From the NCBI RefSeq assembly GCF_000220175.1, contig NZ_AFPU01000001.1:558001-622000 (forward strand): a stretch of 64,000 nucleotides of DNA, in the 5' to 3' direction. Shown piece after piece: positions 18,808 through 27,728 of the stretch (position 1 is the first letter of the stretch; the number at the start of each line of letters is the position of its first letter). The translations under genes were made by a program, and so were the position numbers. The DNA comes from Nitrosarchaeum koreense MY1 (GTDB lineage: Archaea; Thermoproteota; Nitrososphaeria; Nitrososphaerales; Nitrosopumilaceae). The notes under the pieces are model-generated. The model saw nothing but the letters and a program-made list of their open reading frames with translations. It was not told where the DNA came from and made no database searches.

Positions 18808-21651
18808 TTGGATACATATACGTTGAATAGAAAATCATACTTTGGTATTTGTTTTGGTGTATTGTTGCTAATTAGTATTGTATCCGTACAAATGGCATAT
18901 GCTGAACCTATGTTTTCTTTTAAATTTGGTACTTTTGGAACCGCAAATAATCAACTAAAAAATCCACATGATGTTGATGTGAGTAGTGATGGTAGATCCA
19001 TCTATGTTACAGATACTGATAATCACAGAATTATTGTATTTGATGATGATGGGGATTATGATTACAAATTTGGCACCTTTTGTAATATGACTTCAATCCA
19101 AAACTGCAATGATGATGCAGATGGTGCAGACAATGATGGCGATGGTCAATTTAACAATCCCTTTAGTGGAGTTTTAGATGGGATTGGAAATTTCTTTGTT
19201 ATTGATTCTGATAATGAACGAGTTCAAAGATTTGATGATGGCGATGGTCAATTCGAATCAAAGTTTGGCTCTTCTGATAATACAAAACCCGAGTATCTAG
19301 GCTCTGCTCAAGGAATTGCTATACAAAAATCTACAAAGAAGATTTTTGTATCTAGTATTGAAACTGATTCCATATCTGTTTTTGATTCTTCAGGAACTTT
19401 TGTAACTAATTTTAAAACGTTCAATGGTACTCAAACTCTAACGAATCCATCACATATGATAATTGATGACAGTGAAGAGACTCTATATGTTTCTGATACT
19501 GGAAATGATAGAATCATAGCATTCAAACTTGTTACAGGAACAACATGTCCAACAGGTACTACTAAAGCAGTAGATGGAATTTGTTATATCAAAAAGTTTG
19601 GTTCTGCAGGTACCGCTGACGGAAAATTTGATTCTCCATCAGGTTTAGCAATTGATTCAACAAATGATTTGCTTTATGTTGCAGATACTGATAATAACCG
19701 AATCCAAATATTCAAACTAACTACTGATACAACTTGTGCTAGTGGTACAAGTAAAGTTGTTGATGGTGTATGTTTTGTAGAAAAGTTTGGTTCTGCAGGT
19801 ACCGCTGACGGAAAATTTGATTCTCCCTTAGGACTTGCGTTAGATACTACACATAATTTACTATATGTTGCAGATACTGACAACAGTAGGATTCAGGCAT
19901 TTACACTGGTAACTGCTTCACAAACTCCTGGTCCTCCAAAGAATTTGAAAACATCTCCAGTTTCCACAAAATCTGTACTCTTAACTTGGGATGAACCTGT
20001 TTTATCTACTGGATCTCCTGCAGTAACTGGTTACAAAATTGAATACAAAACCGCAACCACTGCATATGCTGTTTTGATTGCAGATACTAAGAGTATTTCA
20101 ACATCATTTCTTCATGAAGGTCTCGACTCTAGCAATACTTACACTTATCAAATATATGCAATAAATTCTAAAGGAACAAGTACCCCTTCTTCTAGTTCAT
20201 CAGTAAAACCTACAGAAACTACTGTTCCAAGTGGATTGCTTGCAACAGCAATTTCTCCAAATCAAATTAGACTTTCATGGCAAGCTCCATCAAACACATT
20301 TGGACAAAGCATCGGTGGATATACAATTCAACGTGTAGTTGGCCCTGATGTTTATGATAATCTTGGTTCAACAAATAGTAAAACAACTACATACACTGTT
20401 AATAATTTGACAACTGATAAATCATATTCATTTGTAGTTCGAGCAAATATTGGATATGGTGTTACAGAACCATCAAACACCGCCTCTGCTACTCCCAAAA
20501 CAACTTCAGTTGATGTTCCTCAAACACAAACATCTTCCAATTCTGCTGTAATACAAATTTCTTCACCTCCAATAAAATTAACTGCAACAAGTACCTCCTC
20601 TACTCAGATTAATCTGTCATGGAGTCCACCTTCATCTACTGGAAATACTCCGATCACTGGTTACAAAATTGAGACGAAAAAAGATTCTGGCTCTTACTCT
20701 GTATTGGTAGCAAACACAAACAGTACCTCCACTACATACTCTCATACGAATCTTACAACAAATTCCAAATACACATACAAAGTATATGCGATAAATGAAG
20801 CTGGTACCAGTACTGCATCTAATGAAGTTACTACAATTCCAACAACTACTTTGAAAATAAATCCTTTAGGTAAGCTGACGATAGATGAAGGAAAATTACT
20901 ATCTTTTGCTGTAAAGTTGACTGATCCATCTATGAGTGGCATGGTATTTAGTTTAGAAAAGAATCCTCCTACTGGAGCTTCAATTAATCAAAATAATGGA
21001 ATGTTTAGTTGGACTCCAAATGATACACAGGGTGGAAAAGCATACATCTTTGATATTGTAGCAAATCTAGGCTCGTTAAGTGATAGGCAATCAATTATAA
21101 TTACTGTAAATGATTCTATCAAAAAATCTGATCCTATCAAAGAGCCAGAACCACCAAAAGATGATCCTATAGATGAACCTGTTAAACTAGAGATAGCTTC
21201 ATTTGTGGATCCTACAAGAGATCCACAATCATATGTTGACAGATACAACAATGAACCAAGTTACAAAAAATGGTTTGATGATAACTTCCCAGAATACTCT
21301 TCAATTCATGAAGCAGTTGGATTAGATACACCAAAAGGTTTAGCTCCTTTTGTTGATACTTCAAAAGATCCACAATCTTATGTTGACAGATACAACAATG
21401 AACCAAGTTACAAAAAATGGTTTGATGATAACTTCCCAGAATACTCTTCGATTTATGAAGCAGTTGGATTAGATAAACCAAAAACTGATGAACCAAAAAC
21501 GGATACACCAAAAATTGATGAACCAAAAACTGACACACCAAAAATTGATGAACCAAAATTTGGAATATGTGGACCTGGAACAAAACTAATTGATGGCATA
21601 TGTACTATTGTCGATATGCCAAAACCAAAACCTTGGTGGCAATTCTGGTAG
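18808..21651 (+). CDS. Large secreted NHL-repeat, fibronectin III surface protein (947 aa)
   Basis: A signal peptide (residues about 10-33, ending QMAYAEP) is followed by six NHL-type beta-propeller repeats recognisable by YVTDTDNHRIIVF-like cores (about 40-375). Three fibronectin type III domains come next (starting near 372, 472 and 590), then a cadherin/He_PIG-like Ig domain (about 690-770). A 49-residue unit with SYVDRYNNEPSYKKWFDDNF occurs twice, followed by a Lys/Asp/Thr/Pro repeat (KTDEPKTDTPKIDEP) and a Cys-containing tail ending WWQFW. No transmembrane anchor is seen at the C-terminus. A cell-surface adhesion or binding role is inferred from the domains. The start is TTG, with a second in-frame TTG five codons downstream. 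Confidence 0.9.
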   Translation: MDTYTLNRKSYFGICFGVLLLISIVSVQMAYAEPMFSFKFGTFGTANNQLKNPHDVDVSSDGRSIYVTDTDNHRIIVFDDDGDYDYKFGTFCNMTSIQNCNDDADGADNDGDGQFNNPFSGVLDGIGNFFVIDSDNERVQRFDDGDGQFESKFGSSDNTKPEYLGSAQGIAIQKSTKKIFVSSIETDSISVFDSSGTFVTNFKTFNGTQTLTNPSHMIIDDSEETLYVSDTGNDRIIAFKLVTGTTCPTGTTKAVDGICYIKKFGSAGTADGKFDSPSGLAIDSTNDLLYVADTDNNRIQIFKLTTDTTCASGTSKVVDGVCFVEKFGSAGTADGKFDSPLGLALDTTHNLLYVADTDNSRIQAFTLVTASQTPGPPKNLKTSPVSTKSVLLTWDEPVLSTGSPAVTGYKIEYKTATTAYAVLIADTKSISTSFLHEGLDSSNTYTYQIYAINSKGTSTPSSSSSVKPTETTVPSGLLATAISPNQIRLSWQAPSNTFGQSIGGYTIQRVVGPDVYDNLGSTNSKTTTYTVNNLTTDKSYSFVVRANIGYGVTEPSNTASATPKTTSVDVPQTQTSSNSAVIQISSPPIKLTATSTSSTQINLSWSPPSSTGNTPITGYKIETKKDSGSYSVLVANTNSTSTTYSHTNLTTNSKYTYKVYAINEAGTSTASNEVTTIPTTTLKINPLGKLTIDEGKLLSFAVKLTDPSMSGMVFSLEKNPPTGASINQNNGMFSWTPNDTQGGKAYIFDIVANLGSLSDRQSIIITVNDSIKKSDPIKEPEPPKDDPIDEPVKLEIASFVDPTRDPQSYVDRYNNEPSYKKWFDDNFPEYSSIHEAVGLDTPKGLAPFVDTSKDPQSYVDRYNNEPSYKKWFDDNFPEYSSIYEAVGLDKPKTDEPKTDTPKIDEPKTDTPKIDEPKFGICGPGTKLIDGICTIVDMPKPKPWWQFW
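19592..19826 (+). repeat. 46-bp direct repeat inside the NHL region
   Basis: The same 46 bases, encoding KFGSAGTADGKFDS, occur at 19592-19637 and 19781-19826, 189 bp (63 codons) apart. Exact DNA identity over a whole propeller-blade segment suggests a recent in-frame duplication or gene conversion. Confidence 0.85.
21232..21449 (+). repeat. 71-bp direct repeat encoding the C-terminal 49-aa unit
   Basis: Positions 21232-21302 and 21379-21449 are identical at the DNA level and are spaced 147 bp (49 codons). They encode YVDRYNNEPSYKKWFDDNF and flanking residues. Confidence 0.9.
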
Positions 21652-22562: not shown

Positions 22563-23856
22563 TTACACTAATGTCCACGTGAAGATCATAATAACAATGG
22601 AAAATCCCATTATTGCAACAGTTAACCATCCTAAAACATTCGCTAATCGTCGATTAGTATGGGTGTGAAGTATTTTTTTGTCATTTGCAACTTTGATGAC
22701 TGCTATGAGTAAAGGAACTGCAATTATCCCATTAATTATGGCAGTATAGTATAATGCTTTGATAGGATCTAACCCCATAAAATTAATCCAGAGTCCAACT
22801 ACTGTAGAGGAAGCTATTATCAAATAGAACGATTTAGCTTCCTTGAATTTCTTGCTTAACCCTTGTTTCCAACCAAATCCTTCCGATAATGCATACGCAG
22901 AAGAACCAGAAAGTATTGGGATTGCCAACATACCTGTACCTATAACTCCTAATGCAAAGATTATTTTTGCAATTTGTCCTGAATTTGGAAATGTTTGTAC
23001 TAGCGGTTCTAGTGCTTTTGCAGCTTGATCTGCAGTAATAACATTTGAAATTCCTCCAGCATGAAGAGTTCCGGCGGCAGTCAAAATAATAAACCACATT
23101 GTAAGTATAGAAAACCCAATTCCAAGCATGACATCTATACGCATCATTTTGATTTCGCGCTTTGTGATGTGTGGTTTGCTATCTCCAATTTCTTTAATCT
23201 TGTTTTTTGCAACATCTTCTTCTGCTTCTTCTGATGTCTGCCAGAAAAACAAATAAGGTGATATTGTGGTTCCAAAAAGCGCAACAAACATCATGGAAAA
23301 TGCGGGAGTAAACTCTACATGTGGAATAATACTCGCAGTAAAAACTTCTTGCCAGTTTGCTCCAATAATTAAAGCAGTAACAAAATATGCAAGTAAAGAA
23401 AGTGTCAGATATTTTAATATCCTGATATATTTTTGATATGGAATTAAAATTTCAGATAAAATTATCGTCGTAGTAAAAAACAGCGTGGTAAGAAGAATTG
23501 GAAATCCAGGAAAAATTAGATTTACAGAAGCAGACATTGCACCGATATCTGCACCGATGTTTATCGTGTTTGCAACAAGAAGCAATGTTATTATCGGAAA
23601 AACTGTTTTTTTTGAATACTTTTTTTTTGATAACTCCTGCCAACCCACTTCCAGTCAACAGACCGATTCTTCCACACATTTCTTGTACAGTTGTTACTAA
23701 CGGATAGATAAACAAGGAAAACCATAGTGCACCAGTACCATACTGTGCACCTGCTTGAGTATAGGTTGCAATTCCTGATGGATCATCATCAGAAGCCCCA
23801 GTTATTATTCCAGGACCAAAAATCTTTGAGAGTTTTTTTAGTCTGTGTTTAGACAT
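22563..23856 (-). pseudogene. NRAMP-family divalent metal transporter, frameshifted at an A9 run
   Basis: Two overlapping frames together encode one NRAMP (SLC11) transporter. The first, 23856 to about 23620, gives MSKHRLKKL..GASDDDPSGIATYTQAG..GLAGVIKKK. The second, from about 23625 to 22563, continues KKYSKKTVFPIITLLLVANTINIGADIGAM. They join at a run of nine A (minus strand; T at 23620-23628); eight A would restore one frame. TM1 reads DDPSG instead of DPGN, and the TM6 region GTTISPYLFFWQ lacks the canonical MPH, so it belongs to a divergent NRAMP subgroup. Substrate (Mn, Mg or other) cannot be assigned. The shift may be a true mutation, a sequencing error, or recoding/phase variation. 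Confidence 0.85.
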
Positions 23857-24126: not shown

Positions 24127-25938
24127 ATGGTTTTTCATAAATCAAATCAATACATAATATTTAGTAATAATACCGATAATTGTGGTTTCTTTTTGGATAA
24201 AGAAGTAGCATTAACAATCATAATAATGGTTGTCACTACCGGGGCAATTGTGGGATTATTGTGTATTTACACAAATAATGAAATTCAACGAATGAATGAG
24301 GAAATAACAAAAACAAAAACAAATGAAGTGCAGGCATTATCTTCACGTTTTGCGTTAAGGTTACAGTATGTTACTGGCCTGATGGAATTATCTAGTCAGA
24401 CTTTTCCAATGACGAAACCTCCGACACACTCAAGTTTAATTTCTGATCATTTAAAGGGCATACCGCAAGATGCAGACATTGAGAAAAGAGAAATTGCAAG
24501 AAACATGTTTGATAAAAAACTTGAACTTGAGTATGTTTTTTATGCCATGCCAAATGGTGACATCTATTTTTTAGAACCGTTTTCCTCACAGGTCAAACTC
24601 TCTCAGATAAATTTTGCTTTTAGGGACTGGTATCAAGGTGCACTGGACACAGGCTCTACATATGTAAGCGAGGTTTATGTTTCTGCTAATGAAAAGCACA
24701 ATGTAATAGCAATTGCAGTCCCGATACATAATGACATTGACCAAACTTTGAATGGACTATTTGTAGGTGCACTTGATCTTGGCGCGGTTCAGAGATCACT
24801 ATCACAGATTAGTCATGGACAAAATGAATATTTTCTCATAGTGGATCACAATAATAACATAGTAGTAGATTCTAGAAAATCAGAATCAGACATTGAAATT
24901 AAAAAATTTACCTTAGATTTGATTGACCATCCATCAAAAAATGAAGTCAGTGTAATAACAAAAGAGATAGACGGAAAAGATCATCTCATAGCATTCAAAA
25001 CTATACCTGTAGGGATTCATGAATGGTCAGTTATATCGATTCAACCGTATGAAGATGTGTTTGTATCATCGACAGTACTGAGAAACGAAACACTTGGAAT
25101 GATCATGACAATAGTGGCAATCACTGGTACGTCTGGTTTTTTTATGATAAGAAAAATAAATATAAACATACATCTTTCAGACCAACTAAAACAAAACAAC
25201 TCTGAACTAGCGCTAAAAACGGAACAAATCAAACAGATTGATGTTCAAAAAGACGAATTCTCTGCAATGGTTACACATGAGCTAAAAACTCCTCTAATGC
25301 CTATCTTGTGGAATTGTAATTTATTAAAAAAAGGAATGACAGGAGAACTTAATGCAGAACAGATAGAATCAATAGAATCTATTGAAAAAAATACAAAGCA
25401 ACTTGAGTCACTCATTAGCGATATTATGGATGTAAGAAAACTAGAGCTAGATAAAATGAAATTTAATTTTGAATCTATATCGACAGATGAATTTTTTGGC
25501 AATCTTGATTCTACTTATAGAAAGATCTTGACTGACAAAGGGATGTCCTTTAAGACAGAATATCCACATGGAATTATCATACATACAGACAAGACAAGAC
25601 TACGACAAGTCTTTGATAACATAATAGGAAATTCTATAAAGTTTATTCCTCAAAACACGGGAATAATTGAGATAGTAGTGGAGAAAAAAGAAAATGAATT
25701 GACTGCATCCATCAAGGATAATGGTTCTGGCATTCCTCCTGAAAAACAAAAAGGATTGTTTCAGAAATTTTATCAAATAGATACATCAGAGAGAAGAAAA
25801 AGCGGTGGGACCGGACTCGGGCTTGCCATCTCAAAGAAGATAATGGATAAGCTTGGAGGCTCAATCCAGATTGAAAGCGATGGCAAGACAGGCACAACAG
25901 TTCACATTAGTTTGCCTATTGAAAATCAAAATTCTTAA
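24127..25938 (+). CDS. Membrane sensor histidine kinase with extracytoplasmic Cache domain
   Basis: TM1 (about 27-48) and TM2 (about 322-342) bracket a periplasm-type sensor domain of about 270 residues. It has the dCache pattern FRDWYQGALDTGSTYVSEVY, typical of amine, amino-acid or organic-acid sensing. A short coiled linker leads to the HisKA domain with phosphoacceptor His384 (MVTHELKTPLMPI). The ATPase domain follows, with N box DNIIGNSIKF, G1 DNGSGIPPEK, and G2 GGTGLGLAISKKI. It is a complete kinase of 603 aa. The receiver gene starts 27 nt downstream and the HisKA-protease gene follows, all on one strand, so they very probably act together. Isoleucine is often encoded by ATA here, more than in nearby housekeeping genes. 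Confidence 0.93.
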   Translation: MVFHKSNQYIIFSNNTDNCGFFLDKEVALTIIIMVVTTGAIVGLLCIYTNNEIQRMNEEITKTKTNEVQALSSRFALRLQYVTGLMELSSQTFPMTKPPTHSSLISDHLKGIPQDADIEKREIARNMFDKKLELEYVFYAMPNGDIYFLEPFSSQVKLSQINFAFRDWYQGALDTGSTYVSEVYVSANEKHNVIAIAVPIHNDIDQTLNGLFVGALDLGAVQRSLSQISHGQNEYFLIVDHNNNIVVDSRKSESDIEIKKFTLDLIDHPSKNEVSVITKEIDGKDHLIAFKTIPVGIHEWSVISIQPYEDVFVSSTVLRNETLGMIMTIVAITGTSGFFMIRKININIHLSDQLKQNNSELALKTEQIKQIDVQKDEFSAMVTHELKTPLMPILWNCNLLKKGMTGELNAEQIESIESIEKNTKQLESLISDIMDVRKLELDKMKFNFESISTDEFFGNLDSTYRKILTDKGMSFKTEYPHGIIIHTDKTRLRQVFDNIIGNSIKFIPQNTGIIEIVVEKKENELTASIKDNGSGIPPEKQKGLFQKFYQIDTSERRKSGGTGLGLAISKKIMDKLGGSIQIESDGKTGTTVHISLPIENQNS

Positions 25939-25965
25939 AAGCATGTAATCATATTTTATGACTAT

Positions 25966-26334
25966 ATGCACTTTTTGTTGGTCGACGATAATGCAGAGAT
26001 TACAAAAATAATGTCAAAATATTTTACAAAAAAAGGTCATATGTGTACAGTTACAAATGACGGTCGTAATGCACTTGAAATATTACAAGGTCAGAAATTT
26101 GATGCAACACTACTCGATCTTGCGATGCCAGAATTTTCAGGCAGAGATGTAGTCATGCATTTAAAAAATAATGGAAAAATAAATGATCATAACATAGTCT
26201 GTCTTACAGCATCTTCTCCATCTGGTGAGTATGAAGATGAATTAAGAATCATGGGAGTAAAAGCAATACTGAAAAAACCAATTGACCCTGATGTATTACT
26301 TGACTTTATGAATCAGTTTCAAATCAAGCATTAG
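25966..26334 (+). CDS. Stand-alone response regulator receiver domain
   Basis: A CheY-like receiver of 122 aa. The acidic pocket is in LLVDDN, the phosphoacceptor Asp is in TLLDLAMPEFSG (about residue 51), Thr/Ser is in CLTASSPS, and the conserved Lys is in ILKKPIDP. There is no output domain, so it must signal by protein contact. It sits between the kinase and the HisKA-protease gene, with 27-nt and 8-nt gaps. A cis-Pro after the Lys and an extended loop before helix 4 are normal. Confidence 0.92.
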   Translation: MHFLLVDDNAEITKIMSKYFTKKGHMCTVTNDGRNALEILQGQKFDATLLDLAMPEFSGRDVVMHLKNNGKINDHNIVCLTASSPSGEYEDELRIMGVKAILKKPIDPDVLLDFMNQFQIKH

Positions 26335-26342
26335 CAATCAAT

Positions 26343-27728
26343 ATGGATGATCATATTATTAATGAACTACAACAAATAATTTTATTTCAGAAAAAACTAG
26401 AACAGCTAATCAATAGTGATGATCAAGATAAATCAATACAAATACCAGATATAATAGATAATCTTGAATCTACAAATAACCTTACTGAAAAACTTGTAAG
26501 TGGCATACTCTCAGATAAAACAAAATTCGATAAAGTATTTTTAAGTACACTTAATCATGAACTGCGTACCCCACTTGTGCCGATAAAGACATATTCGGAA
26601 ATGCTAATACAAAATAAATTTGGAAATTTAAATGAGCAACAAAAAGAAAGACTTGACATCATTGTAACAAACACTAATCTATTGCAACAAAAAATAACAG
26701 AACTCCTTCAGCAAAGTGCAGATAAGATTTCATCAGATAAAGAGTCCCGTCACCGTCTAAAAGAAGTGGAACAAGAAAAAGTGTTATTGGAAAAGTTAGA
26801 CGACCTTTTAAATGATGAAATAAAACAAGACAAACAGACAATACATCGACTACAAGATACCGTGACAAAATTGAGTCAAACCCAAAAAGAGGGCAGACAA
26901 GAAGAACTGTTTTTAGATAAGATGATAAAAGACGAAGAAAGAAAAAATGTCCTTCTTGCCAAAAATAACCTCATAGTAATTGCAATATCTGCAATAATTG
27001 TTAGTGCAGGATTTGTAGCCTATTCTACATACGTGGTAAGTGTTGTAGGCTCACAATACAAAGTAGTCAATATTGGAAACATGCAATCTGGATATGTCAT
27101 ACAAAACCTTAGGGGCGACACTATAGACACATGGCTTTCATGGAGACTAGTTGACGGCTCTACTCTTAATGTCAACTTAATTGACGGTCAAAAATATCCT
27201 GATAATGCTGAAATTGTTAGGACTGTACTTTTATCAGAAGAGTCAATTGAGATAGATGATTCGTTATTGCACAAGGGCCCAAAGGGAGTCGCGTCTACAT
27301 ACTATATTGGATGGGCAGGAGCACTTGCAGATGCGGCAAAGAATCCAACTGAAATGTACATTCCTCACAAATTCAACTTGATAGAGTCTCAAAAAGGTGA
27401 AGGGGAAATTACAATCAGGCTTACAACAATGAAAAGTGGAGACGGTTATTCTGGATATACAAAATCAATTGCAGACGATGTACAAAATCAGATACTAAAA
27501 TCAGAGATTACAATATTTGAAGTAGACAAATTATCAAAAGCCCAGTTTGAAACCATACTGAGACACGAGCTTGGACATGCGCTAGGACTGGCACACTCTA
27601 CAGCTCCTGAAGATCTTATGCATCCTACAATTGAGACAGACTATCCATACATCTCTCAATGTAACATTGATGCCATGATATCACTCTATGACGGTGGAAA
27701 GAAGAGTGAAGTTGTATGTGAAAAGTGA
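26343..27728 (+). CDS. HisKA phosphoacceptor fused to a transmembrane matrixin-type metalloprotease
   Basis: The 461-aa protein has three parts. A cytoplasmic region (1-208) contains a HisKA dimerisation domain with His72 in LNHELRTPLVPIKTYSEML and a long charged coiled coil (about 115-205). One transmembrane helix (209-231) follows. An extracytoplasmic domain (232-461) carries the zinc site HELGHALGLAH (His408, Glu409, His412, His418) with a Met-turn candidate Met426 in EDLMHP, as in metzincins/matrixins. No ATP-binding N, G1 or G2 box exists, so it cannot phosphorylate itself. Positive charges before the helix place the protease outside. It lies 8 nt after the receiver gene. Regulation of a surface protease from inside, by phosphotransfer from the upstream kinase, is the inferred role. 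Confidence 0.88.
   Translation: MDDHIINELQQIILFQKKLEQLINSDDQDKSIQIPDIIDNLESTNNLTEKLVSGILSDKTKFDKVFLSTLNHELRTPLVPIKTYSEMLIQNKFGNLNEQQKERLDIIVTNTNLLQQKITELLQQSADKISSDKESRHRLKEVEQEKVLLEKLDDLLNDEIKQDKQTIHRLQDTVTKLSQTQKEGRQEELFLDKMIKDEERKNVLLAKNNLIVIAISAIIVSAGFVAYSTYVVSVVGSQYKVVNIGNMQSGYVIQNLRGDTIDTWLSWRLVDGSTLNVNLIDGQKYPDNAEIVRTVLLSEESIEIDDSLLHKGPKGVASTYYIGWAGALADAAKNPTEMYIPHKFNLIESQKGEGEITIRLTTMKSGDGYSGYTKSIADDVQNQILKSEITIFEVDKLSKAQFETILRHELGHALGLAHSTAPEDLMHPTIETDYPYISQCNIDAMISLYDGGKKSEVVCEK

Follow-up and report, generated by a model that had tools for sequence, protein, structure and literature searches.

Around three quarters of the response regulators of Thaumarchaeota consist of a receiver with no output domain, and in a 2018 census most of these stand-alone receivers had no conserved neighbourhood, so that their functions could not be inferred (PMC5847659). 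That census also describes archaeal 'HisKA, no HATPase' proteins, in which N-terminal PAS or GAF domains precede a C-terminal HisKA domain with a conserved histidine and which are found for the most part in Archaeoglobi and Methanomicrobia (Galperin et al. 2018, PMC5847659); its main text contains neither 'peptidase' nor 'protease'. A stand-alone receiver acting with a DHp domain that lacks kinase activity is found in the Spo0F-Spo0B step, including the membrane-bound Spo0B-TM of Paenibacillus (PMC12826061), while in LapD-LapG and DvhD-DvhG a cytoplasmic signal governs a protease outside the cytoplasm (PMC13090378). In a paper on sponge Thaumarchaeota, matrixins are mentioned as degradative enzymes only (PMC6697440). 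Here we describe a three-gene locus in a window of 64,000 nucleotides (nt) from the ammonia-oxidising thaumarchaeon Nitrosarchaeum koreense MY1 (contig NZ_AFPU01000001.1, positions 558,001 to 622,000; the genome is 1.61 Mb in one contig), in which genes for a sensor histidine kinase and a stand-alone receiver precede one for a 461-aa protein joining a HisKA domain through a stalk and a transmembrane (TM) helix to a matrixin. This locus is probably a two-component cassette whose output is not transcription but an anchored surface metalloprotease, controlled inside-out through the DHp domain.

A Cache sensor kinase, a stand-alone receiver and a 461-aa HisKA-TM-metalloprotease without an ATPase domain had been proposed from the letters of the DNA, and this original prediction was borne out by Pfam. 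The three open reading frames (ORFs) all lie on the + strand at the coordinates first proposed (Table 1), with gaps of 27 nt between kinase and receiver and 8 nt between receiver and protease. The kinase matched dCache_1 (80 bits), HisKA (50.5 bits) and HATPase_c (102 bits); its start was set at 24127, where the ORF has its first ATG, and the true start may differ. The receiver matched Response_reg (66.8 bits) and keeps the equivalents of the D-D pair, D57, T/S87 and K109. GGDEF, EAL and HD-GYP had no Pfam match in any of the three proteins. The whole genome contains 15 receivers, 9 HisKA domains and 6 M10 domains, and with so few of each a chance meeting of the three is unlikely.

The HisKA domain of the 461-aa protein scored 42.9 bits over residues 66-124 (PF00512, Pfam cut-off 26.9), and no HATPase domain was matched by Pfam in this protein. 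The DHp part aligned around the histidine (aa 61-126) with the solved structures of HK853 (3dge and 2c2a), the motif HELRTPL being common to both; entry 3dge includes a complex with a receiver. Foldseek returned the DHp domains of ERS1 (prob 0.93, E 0.18, from a low-confidence model) and GacS. The Pfam score, the profile match and the HK853 alignment ruled out a chance or misannotated hit, and both the profile and the solved structures identify the segment as a genuine HisKA/DHp domain. Among 17 fused homologues the phosphoacceptor, His72 as predicted, is conserved in 16, E73 and P77 in all 17, and T76 in 15; E73 and T76 are the residues tied to phosphatase action in HisKA proteins. Positions 79, 80, 84 and 87, which map to the receiver-facing side of HK853 helix 1 in the HK853-RR468 complex, are nearly invariant in the fused copies (V/T, P, Y and M) and variable in the kinases of the same loci. 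The turn motif K-F-G was peculiar to ATPase-less copies. Recent copying of the HisKA domain from the adjacent kinase was unsupported, as the ATPase-less domains stood apart from all 94 kinases, by a split with an SH-aLRT of 71 only.

Hydropathy detected a single hydrophobic segment, in agreement with the one TM helix predicted. Its N-terminus is placed inside, since the HisKA domain must be cytoplasmic in order to meet the receiver. An AlphaFold2 (AF2) monomer model (mean pLDDT 59.6) had a helix at 64-89, a turn and then a single unbroken helix at 98-235 running through the stalk and the membrane, a hint that the DHp domain is attached the reverse way to that of kinases, with helix 2 rather than helix 1 leading to the membrane. 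Comparison with two relatives with intact genes yielded ratios of nonsynonymous to synonymous substitution (dN/dS) of 0.10-0.11 for the HisKA domain, 0.18-0.19 over the stalk and 0.07-0.15 over the ectodomain; all lie well under 1, indicative of purifying selection on each part.

The ectodomain matched Peptidase_M10 (39.2 bits, residues 341-449, cut-off 24). The zinc motif HELGHALGLAH lies at 408-418 with E409 as predicted, a Met-turn methionine follows at 426, and H408, E409, G411, H412, G415, H418 and M426 were invariant among 20 homologues. A hidden Markov model search found MMP-20 (E 4e-11). Catalytic domains of matrix metalloproteinases (MMPs) topped the Foldseek list for the AF2 model of this part (mean pLDDT 58.4), and the match of membrane-type MT1-MMP to that low-confidence model (Z 8.5, root mean square deviation 3.0, 111 residues aligned) was tied with those of other metzincins. 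By sequence and fold the ectodomain is a real matrixin, of predicted catalytic activity. In the alignment, the stretch from the TM helix to the Pfam match looks like the beginning of the matrixin fold, and no separate pro-domain is apparent; latency would then have to arise elsewhere, which would fit control from inside.

In order to determine how widely these genes occur together, 250 genomes of the window's family were searched for TM-matrixins and about 130 neighbourhoods were fetched, their ORFs being called mechanically and scored with profiles built from the window's domains. TM-matrixins of this kind were present in 100 of the 250 genomes, and intact HisKA-TM-M10 ORFs numbered 17, from 16 genomes in five genera of this one thaumarchaeal family; relatives of the 461-aa protein were found in records named Nitrosarchaeum and Candidatus Nitrosotenuis. 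In 15 of the 17 fused loci the gene immediately upstream (-23 to +8 nt) encodes a receiver, the exceptions being L128 and L133. These receivers clustered in a tree, with weak support, and all 15 had a complete D-D-D-T-K set. The kinase preceded the receiver in most fused loci and followed the protease in two (L126 and L133).

The HisKA domain was not always fused. Two genomes (G011 and G070) encode it as a gene of its own, of 131-133 aa, just upstream of the protease gene; its stop codon overlaps a ribosome-binding-like TGAGGT, and the protease ATG follows a few bases on. Sequencing errors were considered as a source of these split genes, but the split position is shared by both genomes and is followed by a start site, making real fission likelier. 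Genes that are fused in one genome but separate neighbours in another classically indicate a functional link. Genes for a HisKA domain only also adjoin a protease at L135, L136 and L041, while in genome G007 the HisKA domain is lost, the receiver kept and the kinase inverted.

Of 127 TM-matrixin genes, 43 had a same-strand receiver gene no more than 60 nt upstream, in comparison with 5 of 963 other genes of the same stretches (Fisher p 6e-38, a value that ignores shared ancestry, so that the proportions alone are relied on). As this contrast is seen in several clades of the protease tree, the broader conserved unit is the receiver plus the TM-matrixin, and the HisKA domain is an added adaptor module that may be fused, separate or absent. 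The proposed system of kinase, receiver and HisKA-protease therefore stands as a conserved pairing, kept over genera despite sensor swaps, order changes and fission, but its core is wider than had been supposed. Some TM-matrixins had other surroundings. At L153, L155, L157, L164, L183, L194 and L198 a same-strand receiver gene follows the protease gene; its product, about 216 aa long, weakly matched NitrOD5 in L164, and some of these receivers lack the conserved Lys or Thr. A further clade (L059, L060, L165, L171, L182, L189 and others) has a fixed neighbourhood without a receiver. Upstream, abutting the protease gene (about 0 nt) or overlapping it, is a gene of some 300 aa, whose product in L060 has a weak CBS match; downstream is a converging gene, which in L060 encodes an aspartate/ornithine carbamoyltransferase.

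Searches were extended beyond the family. In a draw of 398 genomes from the phylum, matches at E <= 1e-20 were confined to the window's own family, and a draw from the class gave weak matches only outside it. A scan of 84,980 species employed two peptide patterns only, so that fusions of like architecture and separate origin may well exist in other phyla. A 36% relative of the HisKA-TM protein also turned up in a record labelled Proteobacteria (L239, JADFOC010000103.1), which is probably a misbinned thaumarchaeal contig.

These observations suggest the following sequence of events. A signal sensed by the dCache domain would lead the kinase to phosphorylate the stand-alone receiver, which would then dock at the protease's cytoplasmic end, on the DHp bundle without ATPase, either docking only or also handing its phosphate to His72. 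The resulting change in the bundle would pass through the stalk and the TM helix to the external matrixin, altering its activity or its access to substrate, and Thr76 could let the DHp domain dephosphorylate the receiver and so end the signal. Phosphotransfer and pure docking appear about evenly matched: the former is favoured by the retention of His, E and T in nearly all fused copies and the latter by the few relatives that have Asp for His. Docking may even outweigh phosphorylation of His72, given that the HisKA domain is variously fused, separate or absent and that its His is not always present.

Several observations count against control through the DHp domain as outlined above. A HisKA domain is missing from most of the family's TM-matrixins, and many have no adjoining receiver. 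Of the 27 HisKA domains without an ATPase, 3 (one in a fused protein, two in separate ones) have Asp where the phosphoacceptor His would be, so that phosphotransfer cannot be universal. A continuous lever of DHp domain and stalk is not obligatory, because the two are separate proteins in two genomes, and confidence is low for both AF2 models. In genome G001 (L032, 8560-8860), that of a close relative with about 90% identity, the protease gene is interrupted just past the TM helix, beside intact kinase and receiver genes; the break looks like frame damage, and the gene is either dispensable there or misassembled. The loci with Asp for His are L133 (4106-5371 and 1540-1965), L041 (7559-7951) and L151 (2031-2525), with the motifs DELRNP, DKLRNP and DKLRNP, each with Asn at +4; L133 has in addition a separate HisKA gene with its His intact.

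The strongest alternative is that signalling runs outside-in, the matrixin ectodomain sensing an extracellular protein and the DHp domain removing phosphate from the receiver, or serving as its sink, and so tuning the kinase-receiver pair, with the real output elsewhere. This is the usual direction of signalling for receptors, and the retained E73 and T76 would suit it. The zinc and Met-turn residues are, however, invariant beyond the needs of a mere sensor, the receiver still adjoins the protease in relatives without a HisKA domain, and no other output gene recurs next to the cassette: no flanking family, whether a linked substrate or another output, recurred in more than 3 of 20 loci. We consider this direction unlikely.

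Analysis of the kinases speaks for a cassette and also bears on a second alternative. Their sensors vary among cassettes (dCache, dCache plus PAS, PAS only, PAS-PAS and CHASE3), but their cores are related: at HisKA-carrying or HisKA-split loci they fell outside a branch (SH-aLRT 95) of the other 76 HisKA domains in that part of the tree, a grouping that held also with the kinase downstream (L126 and L133). The input of the cassette is thus exchanged across loci while the core, receiver and protease stay. Since the type of kinase core varies with the presence of a HisKA domain, and the protease DHp domain has a phosphoacceptor without an ATPase, the kinase might phosphorylate His72 directly or pair with it DHp to DHp, as in RetS-GacS, leaving the receiver as a separate output or sink. 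Against this, the protease DHp domain appears to be of another lineage than that of the adjacent kinase and not recently copied from it, and the most constant neighbour, HisKA-less loci included, is the receiver and not the kinase. Direct kinase contact seems improbable.

Local feedback, in which the protease acts on the ectodomain of the kinase or on its ligand and the HisKA domain is vestigial, would fit the outside domains of both window proteins but is very improbable, as the cassette kinases of L053 and L127 have PAS only, with no Cache and no evident ectodomain to cut, and the HisKA domain is under purifying selection (dN/dS 0.10-0.16). A coincidental placing of a housekeeping surface protease beside two-component genes, for which the quite different neighbours of other clades of the family might speak, can be practically discounted in view of the receiver contrast and of a linkage kept across genera, gene orders and states of fusion and fission.

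Table 1. Coordinates in the window of the three cassette genes and their parts
Feature	Position	Strand	Basis
Sensor histidine kinase, 603 aa	24127..25938	+	ORF; dCache_1 (aa 53-304), HisKA (374-440), HATPase_c (488-599)
Stand-alone receiver, 122 aa	25966..26334	+	ORF; D7, D8, D51, T81, K104 all kept
HisKA-stalk-TM-matrixin protein, 461 aa	26343..27728	+	ORF, Pfam, homologues
HisKA/DHp domain, aa 66-124	26538..26714	+	Pfam 42.9 bits; HK853 match; Foldseek DHp matches
His72, predicted phosphoacceptor in HELRTP	26556..26558	+	H in 16/17 fused homologues
Helical stalk, aa 127-205	26721..26957	+	AF2, low confidence; predicted unbroken with DHp helix 2 and TM helix
TM helix, aa 207-232	26961..27038	+	Hydropathy; single hydrophobic segment about 202-232
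Matrixin (M10) catalytic domain, Pfam extent aa 341-449	27363..27689	+	Fold apparently from near aa 255
Zinc motif HELGHALGLAH, aa 408-418	27564..27596	+	Sequence; invariant residues among homologues
Met-turn Met426	27618..27620	+	Sequence

Two neighbouring loci were observed on the upstream side. An Nramp metal transporter gene (22563-23856, - strand) is broken across two overlapping frames (44.7 and 182.7 bits) near 23620-23628, at a T run in the + strand, by a frameshift or a sequencing error. Further upstream (18808-21651, + strand) lies a gene for a large predicted secreted NHL and fibronectin III protein, possibly a surface protein, with a motif repeated near its C-terminus (FVDTSKDPQSYVDRYNNEPSYKKWFDDNFPEYSS).

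If confirmed, the cassette would be a phosphorelay acting across the membrane on an outside enzyme in some of Earth's most abundant archaea, with the DHp fold used as the input of a transmembrane effector, and one group of thaumarchaeal stand-alone receivers would gain a specific partner in the membrane-anchored matrixins. It is possible, though we hold this more tentatively than the cassette itself, that it represents a new class of two-component output, in which a phosphoacceptor domain is the cytoplasmic input of a transmembrane enzyme and the phosphorelay ends at, and mechanically switches, a surface protease; the stand-alone receivers of ammonia-oxidising archaea would then be in part surface-protease controllers. 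Two-component phosphorelays and matrixins are each known, and we could not find their combination described: a literature search, with much subscription literature outside its reach, did not find the arrangement of kinase, receiver and HisKA-TM-matrixin.

Comparison with the known systems places the cassette among them part by part. With HK853 and other HisKA kinases it shares the DHp sequence and phosphoacceptor motif, but in those kinases helix 1 leads towards the membrane and helix 2 to the ATPase, whereas here helix 2 is modelled as leading to the membrane and there is no ATPase. The archaeal 'HisKA, no HATPase' proteins have the conserved His and lack the ATPase, as here, but differ in domain order and in lineage. 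Matrixins (MEROPS M10A), including membrane-type MMPs, have the catalytic fold, zinc site and membrane anchor in common with the 461-aa protein. Membrane-type MMPs carry a C-terminal anchor and a pro-domain; the 461-aa protein has an N-terminal anchor, no pro-domain that could be seen and a DHp domain inside. LapD-LapG likewise would resemble it in acting from the cytoplasm on a protease outside, but relies on c-di-GMP and a separate protease held inactive by LapD, while the cassette has protease and two-component docking domain in a single polypeptide. The Spo0F-Spo0B step also combines a stand-alone receiver with a DHp domain without kinase activity, and in Spo0B-TM the DHp protein is membrane-bound, as here. 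Spo0B retains a degenerate C-terminal ATPase-like domain, which is absent here, the stalk and TM helix following the DHp domain instead. Spo0B hands its phosphate to the transcription factor Spo0A and to no extracellular enzyme; the window cassette has no second receiver, and its DHp domain is fused to a surface protease. By analogy, Spo0B-TM and LapD/LapG are the nearest to the proposed cassette in working principle.

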